DNA of 32,105 nt from Elusimicrobiota bacterium. Its GTDB lineage: Bacteria; Elusimicrobiota; Elusimicrobia; JACQPE01. Made by a program: the position numbers and the translations under genes. The stretch spans positions 1 through 32,105 of the forward strand of contig JACPAN010000025.1 of assembly GCA_016180815.1 (NCBI GenBank), in the 5' to 3' direction. Below the pieces are notes generated by a model. That model searched no databases. It was not told the origin of the DNA and was given only the letters and a program-made list of their open reading frames with translations. This document shows positions 12,477 to 23,754 of the stretch, in pieces; within the stretch, counting starts at the first letter, position 1, and each line of letters opens with the position of its first letter.

Positions 12477-15400
12477 TCAAATTTCGATCTCCCGCTCCGT
12501 TTCCACTTTCACGTCAAAAAGTTTGTACACGGCCGGCATCACCACCAAGGTCAGCAGCGTGGAGCTGACCAAGCCCCCGATGACGACCGTGGCCAACGGC
12601 CGCTGAACCTCAGCCCCGGCCGAAGAAGAAATCGCCATCGGCAAAAACCCGAAACTGGCGGCCAACGCCGTCATGAGCACCGGACGGAATCGAATCATGG
12701 CGCCTTCGATAATGGATTCCTCCAAGCCCAACCCCTCCTGGCGCAGTTGGCGAATGTAACTGACCATGACAACGCCGTTTAGCACGGCAATGCCGAATAA
12801 CGCGATAAAACCGACCCCGGCCGAGATGGAAAACGGCATCCCCCTTAAAAACAGAGCCAGCACGCCGCCGGTAGCCGCCAGCGGAATGTTTAAATAAATA
12901 AACGCCGCGGGACGGGCCGAACCGAACGCCAAATAAAGAAGGAGAAAAATCAACCCCAAGGCCACGGGCGTCGCAACCAAGAGCCTTCGCCCGGCGCGCT
13001 CCAAGTGCTCAAATTGACCGCCCCACTCGATGTAGTAGCCCGGCGGCAATTCGACGGTTTCTGCCACGACTTCTCTCGCTTCAGCGACAAAACCTCCCAA
13101 GTCCCGGCCGCGAACGTTGATTTCAACCGAAACCCGGCGGCGCAAATTCTCGCGGCTGACCTGGGCTGGGCCTTCTTCCGCGATAATATCGGCCAATTGA
13201 CCCAAAGGGATCATGCGGCCCGAAGGATCGGCGACAGGGATATTTACAAAATCTTCGATTCGCATATCGGCGGCATTGGCGAAACGCGCCTGCAGATAAT
13301 AACGCCGCTGCCCCTCCAGCACCTGGCCGAGCACCTTGCCGCCCATGGCTTCCACGACGCTTAAAACATCCGCGGCATTGATTCCGTAGCGGGCGATCCG
13401 TTGGCGGTCGATTCTAACGCGCAACACAGGCAGGCCGCTGATTTGTTCCGCCTTGACGTCGGAAGCGCCCCGCACCGAGCTCACCGCCCGGACCACGCGC
13501 TGAGCCAACGCTTTCAACTCATCGAGATCGTCCCCGAAAATCTTGACGGCGGCGTCTGAGCGCACGCCGGCGATCAATTCCGAAACGCGCAGCTCAATGG
13601 GCTGAGAATAAGAAAAAACGGCGCCGATCACGCGCTCTTTCAGACGCTTGTCCATAGCCGCGATTAAGGATTCTTTATTTTTGGCCGTCATCCACTCGGA
13701 ACGCGGGGTCAAATTGACGATAATATCCGAAATTTCAATGCCCATGGGATCGGTGGCGATTTCAGCGCGCCCGGTTTTCGACACCACGCTGATGACTTCC
13801 GGAAATTCGCGCAGCACGCCTTCGATCTTCGTCGTGTTATCCAAGGACTGATTCAGGGATACGGACGGCAGCCTCCATGCTTGAAGCGCAATGGCGCCTT
13901 CATCAAGCTTGGGAATAAATTCAAAACCTAAGGAAAAAAAAAGCCCCGCAGAAGCCAAAAACAGGGCCCCGGCAATGCCCAATGTGCGCTTGGGATATAA
14001 GAGGGTCCAACCCAGCACCGGGCGATACAGCAACTTGCTCCGTTCGACGAGAATGGTATCGCTCTCCTTGATATGGCTGTAAAGAAACAACGCGCTGACC
14101 ACCGGAACAAAAGTCAGGGTCAAGATCAAGGCCGCCACCAAGGCAAAAATAACGGTCATGGCCATGGGTCGAAACATCCGGCCCTCGATGCCCTCCAGGG
14201 AAAGAATCGGCAAATAAACCGTAGCGATGATGCCGACGCCGAAAATGACCGGGCGCGCCACGTCCAGAAAAGATTCGCGCATGACGGAAATGCGCTCGGC
14301 TAACGTCAGAATTCCCGTCTTTTCAACCTGGCGCTGGGCTAAACGCCGCACAGCATTTTCTACCAAAACTACCGCGCCGTCGACCAACAAGCCGAAATCC
14401 ACGGCCCCAAGGCTCATCAGATTGCCGGAAACGCCTGCGTACAACATGGCCGTGAACGCAATCAACATCGCCAAAGGAATAACGCTGGCCACTACAAGCC
14501 CGGCCTTCAGGCTGCCCAATGTCAAAAACAAAACGCCGATGACAAGAAGTCCGCCCTCGATCAAATTTCTGACTACGGTGATCACGGTCCGATCCACGAG
14601 CTCGGCCCGGTCGTAAAAGGTATCAATGATGACCCCGGGAGGAAGGGCCAACGCGATTTCGTCTATTTTTTCCTTGACCCGCTCCACCACGGTCCGTGAA
14701 TTCTCCCCCAACAGCATCATCACAATGCCGGTGACCGCCTCGCCACGGCCGTCGCGAGTCACCGCGCCTTGGCGCACCATGGGAGCCAAGGCGACCGAAC
14801 CCAAATCTCGAACATAAATAGGAAAACCGTCTTTGCTGGCCGCCACGATGATGGAAGCGACGTCGTCGAGCCGCTCCACCAACCCTTCCCCCCGGATCAA
14901 ATATTGCTCCTGATTTTTTTCGATATAAGCGCCGCCGGCGTTGGCGTTGTTTTTTTCAAGGGCTTCAAAAACCTGGCTCAACGAAATGCGCAAAGAAATC
15001 AACTTTTTGGGCTCGATTTGAACTTCATAGGTCTTCAACTCGCCGCCGAACGCGTTGACTTCGACCACGCCGGGGATGGACTTTAGGCGCGGGGCGATTT
15101 CCCATTCCAACAACGAACGCAGCTCCATCAAGGAATACCCTTTGCCCATGACTTCAAACTGTAAAATCTCCCCCAAACCCGAGGAGATAGGCGCCATCTC
15201 CGGATGGCCCAAGCCTTCCGGGATTTCGTCTTTGGCGTGCTCGATGCGTTCCGAAATCAATTGTCTGGCCCAATAAATATCGGTGCCGTCCTGAAAAATA
15301 ACGGTGACCGCGGATAAGCCGAATTTAGACAACGACCGGATTTGCGTAACCTTGGGGATCCCGCTCATGGCTGATTCAACGGGAAATGTGATCAGCCGCT

Positions 15401-15581
15401 CGACTTCCAAAGGACCCAAGCCCGGGGAATTCGTCAACACCTGGACCTGGACATTGGTGACGTCGGGAACCGCGTCGATCGGGAGATTTTTAAGGGCGAC
15501 CCAGCCGACTAAGGCCGCCAAAACAGCCGCCGCGATCACCAGGGCGCGCCATTTCAAAATAAAATCAATAAAGCGTTCCAT
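12477..15581 (-). CDS. czcA: Heavy-metal RND efflux transporter (CzcA/CusA family)
   Basis: 1034 residues, full length for the HME subfamily. The N-terminus has LPIDAVPDVTNVQVQV and the pair FPVESAMSGIP/GTDIYWARQL typical of CzcA and CusA. The proton-relay segment DFGLLVDGAVVLVENAVRRL lies near residues 390-410 in membrane helix 4. Twelve membrane helices and two large periplasmic loops are visible, and the end is RPLATVVIGGLVSSTLLTLVVMPAVY. It exports divalent or monovalent metal ions with the czcB adaptor and czcC outer-membrane factor. The three-Met copper pathway of CusA cannot be confirmed by eye, so Co/Zn/Cd type is favoured weakly. The gene begins 178 bp after czcB, with the gap occupied by a large palindrome. 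Its Shine-Dalgarno sequence is weak. Confidence 0.95.
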   Translation of the reverse strand: MERFIDFILKWRALVIAAAVLAALVGWVALKNLPIDAVPDVTNVQVQVLTNSPGLGPLEVERLITFPVESAMSGIPKVTQIRSLSKFGLSAVTVIFQDGTDIYWARQLISERIEHAKDEIPEGLGHPEMAPISSGLGEILQFEVMGKGYSLMELRSLLEWEIAPRLKSIPGVVEVNAFGGELKTYEVQIEPKKLISLRISLSQVFEALEKNNANAGGAYIEKNQEQYLIRGEGLVERLDDVASIIVAASKDGFPIYVRDLGSVALAPMVRQGAVTRDGRGEAVTGIVMMLLGENSRTVVERVKEKIDEIALALPPGVIIDTFYDRAELVDRTVITVVRNLIEGGLLVIGVLFLTLGSLKAGLVVASVIPLAMLIAFTAMLYAGVSGNLMSLGAVDFGLLVDGAVVLVENAVRRLAQRQVEKTGILTLAERISVMRESFLDVARPVIFGVGIIATVYLPILSLEGIEGRMFRPMAMTVIFALVAALILTLTFVPVVSALFLYSHIKESDTILVERSKLLYRPVLGWTLLYPKRTLGIAGALFLASAGLFFSLGFEFIPKLDEGAIALQAWRLPSVSLNQSLDNTTKIEGVLREFPEVISVVSKTGRAEIATDPMGIEISDIIVNLTPRSEWMTAKNKESLIAAMDKRLKERVIGAVFSYSQPIELRVSELIAGVRSDAAVKIFGDDLDELKALAQRVVRAVSSVRGASDVKAEQISGLPVLRVRIDRQRIARYGINAADVLSVVEAMGGKVLGQVLEGQRRYYLQARFANAADMRIEDFVNIPVADPSGRMIPLGQLADIIAEEGPAQVSRENLRRRVSVEINVRGRDLGGFVAEAREVVAETVELPPGYYIEWGGQFEHLERAGRRLLVATPVALGLIFLLLYLAFGSARPAAFIYLNIPLAATGGVLALFLRGMPFSISAGVGFIALFGIAVLNGVVMVSYIRQLRQEGLGLEESIIEGAMIRFRPVLMTALAASFGFLPMAISSSAGAEVQRPLATVVIGGLVSSTLLTLVVMPAVYKLFDVKVETEREIEI

Positions 15582-15597
15582 TTAACGCTCAACTCTA

Positions 15598-15760
15598 AGG
15601 GCTTGGAAAGGAATAATATGCGCATTTGGCTGAGGCGCTTTTGAGGCGAGACAAAGCCGAATTTTTCGACGCGTGCTTGAAAAGCACGTTAGAAAAATTC
15701 GGCAAAGTCGCAGCCCAAAATCGCCCAGCCAAATGCGCATATTATTCCTTTCCAAGCCCT
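15598..15760. repeat. 163-bp near-perfect palindrome (MITE-like or hairpin element) between czcB and czcA
   Basis: The outer arms 15598-15632 and 15726-15760 are exact reverse complements over 35 bp. An imperfectly paired section follows inside, then a second exact 12-bp pair (15656-15667 with 15692-15703, core GCCGAATTTTTC) and a 7-bp tip hairpin CGTGCTT-GAA-AAGCACG (15672-15688). The element has no ORF. The trinucleotide TAA flanks the GGGC...GCCC core on both sides (15596-15598 and 15760-15762), which could be a target-site duplication. The right end supplies the last base of the czcB stop codon. No second copy is present in the window. Confidence 0.93.
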
Positions 15761-16709
15761 AATGGGAATGGCCGCCCATTTCCTCTTTAGCCAGTTCGGA
15801 CTTCAACAAAAAGCTGCCCTTGACGGCCACCTCATCGGAAACCTTCAACCCGCTGGTAACTTCCACATAGGAACCGGAACGTTCGCCGATCGTGACGGCG
15901 TTGGGAGCAAAAACGTATCGGCCCGGGGTTTTTTTCGAAGCGACAAAAACAATGGTCCGGCCTTCGTACTTTTGAATCGCGGATTCCGAAACAGCTAGCA
16001 CGGAACGCACGCTGACCCGGATCCGCCCCACAATAAACATGCCGAACTTCAACCGGCCGCCCTGGTTCGCGATATCCGCGCGCACTCGAATGGTCCTGGA
16101 ATGGGGATCGACGCGGGGGGAAATATACGTCACGATCCCGTCGAACGTCTCTTTCGGAAAAGCGGTGGCGCTGAAACGAACCGCCTGGCCTTTCTTAATC
16201 CTAGCGATGTCTTTTTCATATACGTCCAAGCTGCAGCGTAAACGCGAGATATCGGCCAAGGTGGCTACGGGAACCGCCGTGTCCAAATGGCTACCCGGAG
16301 CCACGAACAGCCCCACGACAACGCCGGGACGCGAGGCGGTCAACGCCGGGCCTTCGGCGCCGTCGGCGCCCGGACGATACACCAAAATGACATCGCCGGC
16401 ATCCACCGTATCGCCGATCGAAACCAAAATATCCGCGGCCGTGCCGGAAACCTGGGGCCGCAATTGAACCACTCGGTCGGTATCCGACGCAATTTCACCC
16501 AACGCCTCGACTTCGATGGCGAAGGAGCGGCGCGCGGCTTTTTCCGTTTTAATCCCGGCGGACAAGTATTGCTCTTGGGTCAACGACACGTTCGGCTCTT
16601 CATGATGACGATCTCCTTCGTCATGATCCCTCCCGCCGGACGCCAATAACGAAAAACTCAAACACGCCGATAAAACGCCGGCGGCTTTCAATGACGGGCC
16701 CCGCCTCAT
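15759..16709 (-). CDS. czcB: RND efflux periplasmic adaptor (membrane fusion protein, CzcB/CusB-like)
   Basis: 316 residues. The N-terminus has a hydrophobic leader with a lipobox-like LSAC, so it may be lipidated on Cys16. A His/Asp/Glu-rich segment (RDHDEGDRHHEE) follows, and the last residues are GGHSH; both are candidate metal-binding ends. The adaptor core shows a barrel-sandwich half LRPQVSGTAADILVSIGDTVDAGDVI, its second half RPGVVVGLFVAPGSHLD, the beta-barrel VYEKDIARIKKGQAVRF and SPRVDPHSRTIRVRADI typical of MFPs. The coiled-coil hairpin is nearly absent, making it shorter than CusB (~400). It connects the CzcA pump to the CzcC channel. Its start overlaps the czcC stop by four bases; the stop touches the palindrome. 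Confidence 0.9.
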   Translation of the reverse strand: MRRGPSLKAAGVLSACLSFSLLASGGRDHDEGDRHHEEPNVSLTQEQYLSAGIKTEKAARRSFAIEVEALGEIASDTDRVVQLRPQVSGTAADILVSIGDTVDAGDVILVYRPGADGAEGPALTASRPGVVVGLFVAPGSHLDTAVPVATLADISRLRCSLDVYEKDIARIKKGQAVRFSATAFPKETFDGIVTYISPRVDPHSRTIRVRADIANQGGRLKFGMFIVGRIRVSVRSVLAVSESAIQKYEGRTIVFVASKKTPGRYVFAPNAVTIGERSGSYVEVTSGLKVSDEVAVKGSFLLKSELAKEEMGGHSH

Positions 16710-17971
16710 GGCGTGAGATCCCGGGCGACCGCCTGTTCCAATAGCGCCAAGCTCACATGATGATTGCGCAATGACGCCAGATACTCGAGGGTGGCGGCCA
16801 CGAATTCGCGCCGGGCCGCGATAAAAACGAGCAGGTCATCCTCCCCGTCCATATACTGTTGCTCGGCCAAACGCATCGCTTCCGTCCCTTGGTCCAAAGC
16901 ATCGCGCCACAACCGCACCTGCTGCCCCGCCAATTCCCAATTCCAAAAAGCCTCCAGAACGTCCTGCTCGATCGAAGCCTCGACGTCGCGGCGGCGCCAC
17001 TCAACGGCTTGCTCATTGGCCCGCGCCTCGCGGCGGCGGCCCCCATATTGATTAAACAGAGGAACTTGCAAAGCCGCGCCCGCCCCCCAGCTTGGGCGGC
17101 TATCGTCCCGCGCGCCTCTTTGCCAGATAAAATTGGTCGTTAAATCAGGTCGCCAAAGATCGGCCCCGGCCAGCCGGCGGGCGATCCGGGCTCCCTGGGT
17201 TCGCGAATGAATTTCACGCAATTCCGATCGCAGGGTTGCGGCTTCCCGCGCCAGCCCAACGGCGTCCAGCGTCAATTGAATCTCCTCCGGATGCTCGGAC
17301 AATTCAACGATCCGGCCGATGGGTTCGCCCATCAGGCGATTGAGTCTGGCGCGGGCCGTTTTGACGTCGCGCTCCGCCAGCAAAACGTCGTTGCGGGCGC
17401 GTTCGGTCTCAAGACGCGCCCGGGCCACATCCGCGGCGTTGACTTGCCCCGACTGAAAACGGTCTTGAATGCGCGCCAAGAACCGCTGCTGAAATCGATG
17501 ATTCTCCTTGGCAAAAATCACGCGGTCCTCGGCCAGCGCCGCGTCCCAATAATGTTCCTTCACGCCCCGGCGAATTTCGGCCCTCAAAGCCTCCAGGCGT
17601 TCCTTGGCCGCCTCATAATCGAAACGGGCCAACGAGCGCTTCAGCGCCAGTTTGCCCAGGCTGAACGTTTGGCTGACGCCGATTTCCTTAACCGCGTCCG
17701 CTGTTTCGGTTGTTCCCCGTTCGGCTCCCTCCAGAGAAAAACCGACTTCTGGATTATTGGCCGCGCCCGCGACCGCGGTGACGGCGCGCAACGCCTCCAG
17801 TTCACGCTCCGCGGCGCGCAGAATGAAATTTGATGAAACGGCCCTCTCGATGGCGGCCTCAAGCGTGAGCGTCAACGCGGTTTTTCCGGAAGTTTCAGCC
17901 CACGCTCCGACCGCCATCAATCCAGCCGTCCCCAAAACAATCATATTCCGGGAACACCCTCCCTTGTTCAT
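16706..17971 (-). CDS. czcC: Outer-membrane efflux protein of the TolC family (CzcC-like)
   Basis: 421 residues from ATG 17971; an in-frame GTG nine bases earlier is an alternative start. A signal peptide covers about residues 1-25 (NMIVLGTAGLMAVGAWA). The remainder has the internally duplicated TolC arrangement: LTLEAAIERAVSSNFILRAAERELEAL, then FSLGKLALKRS, RFQSGQVNAADVARARLETERARND, and in the second half LQVPLFNQYGGRRREARA and QYMDGEDDLLVFIAARREF. It would be the outer-membrane channel of the metal pump. It is the first gene of the czcCBA-PII operon and is transcribed away from the methyltransferase gene. The 77-bp divergent gap has no strongly recognisable promoter or metal-regulator site, and no regulator gene is adjacent. 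Confidence 0.9.
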   Translation of the reverse strand: MNKGGCSRNMIVLGTAGLMAVGAWAETSGKTALTLTLEAAIERAVSSNFILRAAERELEALRAVTAVAGAANNPEVGFSLEGAERGTTETADAVKEIGVSQTFSLGKLALKRSLARFDYEAAKERLEALRAEIRRGVKEHYWDAALAEDRVIFAKENHRFQQRFLARIQDRFQSGQVNAADVARARLETERARNDVLLAERDVKTARARLNRLMGEPIGRIVELSEHPEEIQLTLDAVGLAREAATLRSELREIHSRTQGARIARRLAGADLWRPDLTTNFIWQRGARDDSRPSWGAGAALQVPLFNQYGGRRREARANEQAVEWRRRDVEASIEQDVLEAFWNWELAGQQVRLWRDALDQGTEAMRLAEQQYMDGEDDLLVFIAARREFVAATLEYLASLRNHHVSLALLEQAVARDLTP

Positions 17972-18048
17972 ATAAAGCACCGTCTCTCATGCTCGGCGTC
18001 TACCCAAGGTTTAGCAGGGAAAGACGGAAAAATCTAGAATCAAACCCT

Positions 18049-21720: not shown

Positions 21721-21808
21721 GGAGAGATGGCCGAGCGGTTGAAGGCGCAGGTCTCGAAAACCTGTAGGGTCTTTATGGCCCTCGTGGGTTCGAATCCCAC
21801 TCTCTCCG
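21721..21808 (+). tRNA. tRNA-Ser (anticodon CGA)
   Basis: The acceptor strands GGAGAGA/TCTCTCC pair, the anticodon stem CAGGT/ACCTG encloses loop CTCGAAA (anticodon CGA, codon UCG), and a long variable arm (TAGGGTCTTTATGGCCCTC) is present as expected for serine tRNAs. The T arm carries GGTTCGAATCC. CCA is not encoded. DNA of a different character begins directly downstream, which suggests use of this tRNA as an integration point. Confidence 0.96.
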
Positions 21809-22292: not shown

Positions 22293-22314
22293 GCTGTTCC
22301 CTTCATTGGTAAAC

Positions 22315-23754
22315 ATGAATAAAAAAGAATTAAGGCGGCTCGTGGCCAAAGGCGAAGGGCCTCAGCTTGAATTTAAGCGTTCCACGGGCGAATTAAAGGA
22401 AGCCCTGCAAACAGCCTGCGCTTTTTTAAATGGAGAGGGCGGCCAAGTGCTTATCGGCGTCAAGCCGGACGGAGCCATCACGGGCCAGCAAGTCGCCGAC
22501 AAGACCCTGCGTGAAATCGCCCAAGCCATAGATGGCTTTGAACCTCCGGCACGCATCAGAACGGAGCGAGTTAGCTTAAAAAAAGGCCTTGAAGTCCTTG
22601 TTTTGCACGCCGACAGTATTTACGATTCCATTCCTTTTTCCTTTGCAGGGAGAGCCTATGAACGCATTGAGAGTACCACTCGGGTCATGCCCCAGAAGCG
22701 CTATGAGCAACTTCTCCTTGCGAGGATGCATAGCAAGCGTCGTTGGGAGAATCAGCAAGCAGAGGGAACGAGCATTCGGGACATTGACCGGGAAGAGGTT
22801 TATCGGTTCGTGAAAGAGGCGCGCTTTGCGGACAGACTCATAGGGCCAGCAGGCAGGGACTTGGGAGCTATTCTTGGACGACTCGGAGTAGCGGAAAAGG
22901 GAAAGATTTTTCGAGCAGCCGTAGTTCTATTTGGAAAGCGCTTTCTTCCGGATTTTCCTCAATGTGAACTTCGGATGGCCCGCTTTCGCGGCAAGGATAA
23001 AACAGAATTTCTGGATCAGCGGCAAATTCGGGGGCCAGCCTTTAAACTACTCGGAGAAGCTTACCTTTTCTGCCAACGCCACTTCCCTTTGCCAGGTCGC
23101 ATTGAGATGGGAAGCATGGTGCGAGTGGACCGCCCCCTTATCCCAACGGAAGCAATACGCGAAATACTGGTTAATGCCTTGATACACCGGGACTATACCA
23201 TTGCGGGCGGAGCCATATCGCTTGCTATTTTTGATGACCGGGTTGAAGTCTGGAGCGCCGGCACTTTACCAGCGGGCATAACCCCTGCCGCCTTATCCCG
23301 CGAGCATCAATCAATTCAACGCAACCCTATTATTGCCGAAGTTTTCCATCGCGCTGGGCTTATAGAAAAGTGGGGACGAGGAACAAACCGCGTGATTGAG
23401 CAGTGCCGTAAACATGGCATCCCTCCACCCAAATTTCACGAAATAACCGGCGCGACAGTCGTTAAGTTTAGAGTCAATGTTGGACGTACCATACAAGTCA
23501 CCGAACAAGTCGCCATACAAGTCACCGAACAAGTCGTTGCGCTCTTAAAGGCTGCCCATGAGCCGCATTCCAGCAAAAAACTTCAAGAAATTATCAAATT
23601 GAAAAATCGCCCCCACTTCCAAATGGCCTACCTTGAACCTCTTTTGGCTGCTGGCTGGCTTGAAATGACCATTCCCGGAAAGCCCAACAGCCGCCTTCAA
23701 CGTTACCGCACAACCGCGTCTGGCGCCACGGCGCTTACAAGAAATAAATTTTGA
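22315..23754 (+). CDS. AlbA_2 (Schlafen-like) domain ATP-binding regulator
   Basis: 479 residues from ATG 22315 (a TTG nine bases upstream is in frame). The N-terminal AlbA_2 domain is shown by GPQLEFKRSTGELKEALQTA and FLNGEGGQVLIGV near residues 14-48. The middle has a HATPase_c_4 module: TEAIREILVNALIHRDY (N-box), DDRVEVWSAGTLPAG and RNPIIAEVFHRAGLIEKWGRGTNRV. The C-terminal part is a predicted winged helix preceded by a duplicated I-Q-V-T-E-Q-V-A linker. Proteins with this architecture are annotated as putative transcriptional regulators or RecG-like helicase relatives and are common in mobile and defence-rich regions; exact function is unknown. Base use is poorer in GC than its neighbours, consistent with transfer. 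Confidence 0.85.
   Translation: MNKKELRRLVAKGEGPQLEFKRSTGELKEALQTACAFLNGEGGQVLIGVKPDGAITGQQVADKTLREIAQAIDGFEPPARIRTERVSLKKGLEVLVLHADSIYDSIPFSFAGRAYERIESTTRVMPQKRYEQLLLARMHSKRRWENQQAEGTSIRDIDREEVYRFVKEARFADRLIGPAGRDLGAILGRLGVAEKGKIFRAAVVLFGKRFLPDFPQCELRMARFRGKDKTEFLDQRQIRGPAFKLLGEAYLFCQRHFPLPGRIEMGSMVRVDRPLIPTEAIREILVNALIHRDYTIAGGAISLAIFDDRVEVWSAGTLPAGITPAALSREHQSIQRNPIIAEVFHRAGLIEKWGRGTNRVIEQCRKHGIPPPKFHEITGATVVKFRVNVGRTIQVTEQVAIQVTEQVVALLKAAHEPHSSKKLQEIIKLKNRPHFQMAYLEPLLAAGWLEMTIPGKPNSRLQRYRTTASGATALTRNKF
23489..23536 (+). repeat. Perfect 24-bp tandem duplication within the AlbA_2 gene
   Basis: Two identical adjacent 24-base units (23489-23512 and 23513-23536) encode I-Q-V-T-E-Q-V-A twice, at the linker before the winged helix. 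Each unit also contains two near copies of ACAAGTC. The duplication is in frame, so copy number could vary by slippage without breaking the protein. Confidence 0.9.

Follow-up and report, generated by a model that had tools for sequence, protein, structure and literature searches.

Among the described systems closest to the element reported here are the long-stem bacterial MITEs of the Correia/NEMIS, RUP and ERIC type, which are short and gene-less, carry terminal inverted repeats, duplicate their target, lie between genes and form a long stem in transcripts (PMC2229807). For RUP, IS630-Spn1 is the presumed source of mobility (PMC2229807). Caulobacter CIR elements consist of two stem-loop arms and a linker and are without terminal inverted repeats (PMC2229807). 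REPINs are dispersed hairpins with compensatory changes that are moved in trans and are linked to RAYT transposases (PMC3116915), and mobile, gene-less hairpin elements, some of them double, occur in mitochondria (e.g. PMC2800124).

We analysed a stretch of 32,105 nucleotides from an Elusimicrobiota bacterium (contig JACPAN010000025.1; hereafter the window), in which a near-complete palindrome GGGC...GCCC with TAA on either side lies between czcB and czcA. This hairpin is very probably a non-autonomous, MITE-like transposable element. Because the two TAA triplets (15596-15598 and 15760-15762, read from the sequence) represent the target-site duplication, the element proper spans 15599-15759 and measures 161 bp. 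A preliminary description of this DNA had correctly recognised a TAA-flanked hairpin, and its length of 163 bp has to be corrected since it counts one flanking A/T pair. The terminal inverted repeats are 34 bp long and perfect (15599-15632 on the plus strand and 15726-15759 on the minus strand), and with the flanking A/T pair the outer arms (15598-15632 and 15726-15760) are 100% complementary over 35 bp. They enclose a core of 87 positions that is conserved across the phylum (hairpin A, 15637-15723, plus strand). Within it, a 12-bp stem (15656-15667 with 15692-15703) and an apical 7-bp stem (15672-15678 with 15682-15688) occupy 15656-15703 of the plus strand. The palindrome lies where the preliminary description had placed it. 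The minimum free energy of 15580-15780 is -123.8 kcal/mol, compared to -54.1 +/- 4.4 kcal/mol in dinucleotide shuffles (z = -15.9; 0 of 200 shuffles as low). The tip of the arm is found at two places in the window, both in the arms of the element, with 0 expected. The ends of this copy read GGGCTTGG with TAA, and IS1182-type ends (CTAGGAGCC) do not occur on it. A scan of the window with Rfam 15 returned three tRNAs only, with no covariance match at gathering score for the element. Elsewhere in the window, downstream of a tRNA gene (21721-21808), positions 22306-23754 encode a Schlafen/AlbA_2 protein whose C-terminal domain is Fic-like.

The flanks of 35 delineated copies of the family were compared, and 28 of them have identical 3-bp flanks (TAA or TTA). 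Where both flanks are TAA or TTA, they agree in 28 of 29 copies, which is more than a preference for a palindromic target alone would give. The terminal inverted repeats have a mean of 1.3 mismatches in 30 within a copy (35 copies), and 9.3 of 30 positions differ between copies. In order to search for empty sites, we joined the flanks of copies with one TWA (TAA or TTA) and compared them with related genomes. Clean empty sites with a single TTA were obtained for L156 of genome G157, compared with G158 and G156, and for L074 of genome G010, compared with G228. For copies in G177 and G166 the flanks are uninterrupted in other species, but with small indels at the junction. The preliminary description had proposed a non-autonomous mobile element and had regarded the lack of an empty site anywhere as evidence to the contrary; the empty sites at these two other copies, together with dispersed copies and TWA flanks, support the proposal. 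The element is short, carries no transposase gene, has terminal inverted repeats and a TAA/TAA duplication, and belongs to a set of dispersed copies with empty sites at other loci, as is typical of MITEs. We propose that a DDE transposase acting in trans would recognise the ends and insert the element at TWA targets.

Using the whole element as query, blastn gave 12 matches in its own genome, with both strands of the palindrome counted, and many matches in two genera of the same family. The covariance model of the core found at least 16 places in the same genome, where per-genome copy numbers are lower bounds, since no more than 18 or 13 candidates were scored in each genome, and, as the model also matches a second hairpin of the element (hairpin B), not all matches are separate elements. 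Within the class the model matched 63 of 235 genomes, from 39 of 64 genera, and within the phylum 84 of 341, from 50 of 100 genera, or about a quarter of the genomes searched. The preliminary description had expected a fixed regulatory hairpin to occur at this site and nowhere else; the palindrome is not confined to the czc site. No match to the family was found among plasmids, phages and viral contigs. Several contigs end within or beside copies, so the family breaks metagenome assemblies. A narrow, keyword-bound literature search returned no description of the family, and we have filed these apparently undescribed nested-hairpin mini-transposons as a new, unusually structured MITE superfamily.

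Full-length members of about 265-275 bp are composed of a terminal repeat of 30-40 bp, hairpin A, a linker (e.g. CCCTTCGGGG), hairpin B and a terminal repeat. Since the hairpin A model also finds hairpin B in these elements, on the opposite strand, the full element is an inverted duplication of a hairpin within an inverted repeat, in which the terminal repeats surround a pair of homologous, inverted hairpins. The alignment of the window copy with L012 (G002) runs at 92% across the left repeat and hairpin A and then jumps to the right repeat. The window copy has thus lost hairpin B. Relatives range from about 56 to 384 bp, compared to 161 bp in the window, and there is no coding signal. Sizes in genome G201 (56, 163, 225, 270, 327 and 384 bp) reflect loss or gain of hairpins, some of them nested inside A and B. 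Four loci of that genome (L202, L207, L208 and L210) have extra palindromes nested in hairpins A and B, resulting in elements of 383-384 bp with a tree-like fold. Tip-only hairpins of about 40-56 bp occur at L011 (G000:C15:26193-26222), L093 and L212 and are apparently elements minus both hairpins. Solitary terminal-repeat tips (TAAGGGCTTGGAAAGAAATAAGGTATG) with no partner within 1.5 kb were seen at L081, L091, L070 and L092 in G010 and at L069 and L083 in G029. Several of those in G010 seem, by eye, to lie directly before a start codon, and they are possibly relics reused as ribosome-binding leaders.

The core is shared by three main classes of tips, namely GGG with TWA (the class of the window copy), TAGTG and CTAGGAGCC. 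For the CTAGGAGCC class an autonomous partner with the same ends is present in G168, where a PF01609/DUF772 transposase of the IS1182 family lies between CTAGGAGCCTGTCCGACATAA ends (NF033551, 380 bits; cut-off 270). G168 also contains the core-bearing element L150, in which one arm has 21 bp of the IS1182 ends and the other arm a close variant, and two further IS1182-like loci have similar tips. This match of ends points to mobilisation of the CTAGGAGCC class in trans. For the GGG/TWA class no autonomous element was found among 52 tip matches in G201, nor were such ends found at PF01609 genes (8, then 29 genomes) or PF13340 genes (24 genomes); the transposase search covered PF01609, PF13340 and Y1. 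Some genomes with many copies are without any PF01609 gene. Two core copies in the genome of the window, L007 and L008 (G000:C10 and C14), have other ends (CTCTACTGTG), which loosely resemble the ends of IS4-like elements in G016 (CACTACTGT) over 8-9 bp only. On a tree of the cores, which has 86 columns, low resolution and many open forks, at least 19 changes of tip class are required, with a minimum possible of 3 and a shuffled mean of 24.6. Well-supported branches alone force several of these changes, so cores and ends have been reassorted.

The covariance model was built for the 87-position core from 19 sequences, and the window's core, which is one of the 19, scores 106 bits (E 4.6e-30). 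In the 19 cores 98.2% of cells are paired and 15 of the 30 pairs have changed on both sides; none of the shuffles and slid registers come near the cores on pairing, double changes or covariation score. Internal mismatches are conserved as well, and one G-U pair is fixed in the 19 cores and present in 66 of 78 of a wider set. When that pair is set aside, the core's own strand has 51 G-U cells and 23 A-C cells, in an alignment that is fitted to the model and has related rows; this comparison leans to selection at the RNA level and is not decisive. The hairpins may keep their pairing despite sequence drift either because pairing is selected or because the arms are homogenised through fold-back copying, or both, and the conserved mismatches argue that fold-back copying alone is not the whole story. 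One member of the family, L205:352-514 (G201:C95), is a perfect 163-bp palindrome, which suggests that one half was copied back onto the other.

These observations also allow a different emphasis, in which the core hairpin functions as a structured module of folded DNA or RNA to which a host or transposition factor binds. Selection would then act on the folding of the core and not on its sequence, and the transposon ends would serve as an exchangeable vehicle. The phylum-wide core with its conserved mismatches and nearly fixed G-U pair, the excess of G-U over A-C cells and the many tip-class changes on the core tree would all fit. However, Rfam gave no match to the core in the window, the excess of G-U was counted in a model-fitted alignment of related rows, the core tree is built on few columns and leaves many forks open, and fold-back copying also gives covarying palindromes, as L205 suggests. 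We consider this reading a tentative one. It is likewise somewhat doubtful, though conceivable, that the core is a self-standing module, recognised in its folded form, that has repeatedly swapped its ends (GGG/TWA, TAGTG and IS1182-type CTAGGAGCC) and persists across the phylum while its carriers turn over.

A palindrome of REP/REPIN type, which a Y1 (RAYT) transposase would have spread with no duplication of the target, is a much poorer candidate. Compensated hairpins have been described for REPINs (PMC3116915) and Y1 genes are present in 7 of the 8 genomes tested, but the 3-bp duplications and the single-TTA empty sites are not those of REPINs. Moreover, no Y1 gene is flanked by elements, with the exception of L131, where a core copy and a partial Y1 match are about 1.3 kb apart, and G010, with its many copies, gave no Y1 match. 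With a 3-bp target duplication and no Y1 association, we consider REPIN/RAYT membership very improbable. The least credible reading is that of a fixed regulatory hairpin that evolved in place and sets the czcB:czcA ratio, for although a very stable fold between adaptor and pump genes would suit such a role, the same element lies with TWA flanks at unrelated sites in its own and other genomes, other czcB-czcA gaps are short and without it, and no terminator T-run is present; these dispersed copies refute an in-place origin and leave room for a role co-opted later.

Returning to the mobile element and its position, the operon is on the minus strand in the order czcC (16706-17980), czcB (15759-16709; a CzcB-like adaptor of the HlyD family), the element, and czcA (12477-15581; a CzcA-like RND pump, ACR_tran). 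In this orientation the junctions are CCCA[TTA]GGGC...GCCC[TTA]GAGTTGAG, and removal of the element and one TTA gives a reconstructed empty site CCCATTAGAGTTGAG...ATG. The czcB-czcA gap, 177 nt with the element, is then 13 nt. No close ortholog of the operon was found in the genomes searched, where CzcB relatives are about 30-41% identical, so the empty allele is a reconstruction and not a direct observation. The orthologous empty site that the preliminary description had suggested looking for was therefore not available, and the 13-nt gap does fit homologous operons, in which most czcB-czcA gaps are about 0-33 nt. One homologous operon (L054) has a long gap of 306 nt that, by eye, seemingly holds a tRNA gene. 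It had also been claimed that the element supplies the last base of the czcB stop codon. This holds for the G of TAG, but the empty site supplies the same G and the stop is still TAG, so CzcB is unchanged; the element would have landed just behind the czcB stop.

In the polycistronic czc mRNA the element would form a stem of about -120 kcal/mol between the adaptor and pump genes, and the preliminary description had suggested that it could set their ratio through processing or termination. No T-run follows the outer stem in the direction of transcription, where the minus strand reads on TTAGAGTTGAG, and a terminator scan returned short stems only. As there is no T-run after the stem, termination is less likely than processing or a change in stability, and we infer that the hairpin would most likely serve as a site of RNase III-type processing or for mRNA stability, and not as a terminator. 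An open frame of 52 codons (15582-15740, minus strand) has its start codon in the terminal repeat, preceded by AAGGA, and stops immediately upstream of the czcA ATG. We considered a small protein starting at the terminal-repeat ATG. Frames are often open across whole elements, but other frames have as few or fewer stops across the family, so we attribute open frames to composition, do not call the 52-codon frame a gene and regard it as a chance frame. Ribosomes on it could melt the stem, and any effect of the element on czcA is one that we infer.

The family represents a large, apparently undescribed group of structured mini-transposons from a phylum that has received little study. It includes copies with empty sites, and one of its tip classes is matched by an insertion sequence. 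The family raises the question of why the core stays paired, with its mismatches fixed, while its sequence and the transposon ends change. At least one copy lies inside an operon and provides a natural experiment on the effect of a long stem on the expression of neighbouring genes.

Compared to known systems, the likeness to the double-hairpin and repetitive hairpin elements of mitochondria, which are also mobile and gene-less, is one of shape only, and those elements occur in other genomes. We know of no link between them and DDE-type ends. The two stem-loop arms and the linker recall the CIR elements of Caulobacter, whereas here both arms are inside a closing stem. Dispersal as hairpins, compensatory changes and movement in trans are shared with REPINs; unlike these, the family makes a 3-bp duplication and shows no RAYT association here. 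Members with CTAGGAGCC ends resemble IS1182-family MITEs in sharing 21 bp with IS1182 ends of the same genome, whereas the window copy has GGG ends, a TWA duplication and no partner found. Short length, lack of genes, terminal inverted repeats, target duplication, intergenic position and a long transcript stem are shared with Correia/NEMIS, RUP and ERIC. Unlike these, the family has longer perfect arms and a TWA target, the terminal stem of its full-length form encloses two inverted hairpins, and one core is found on different tip classes across the phylum.
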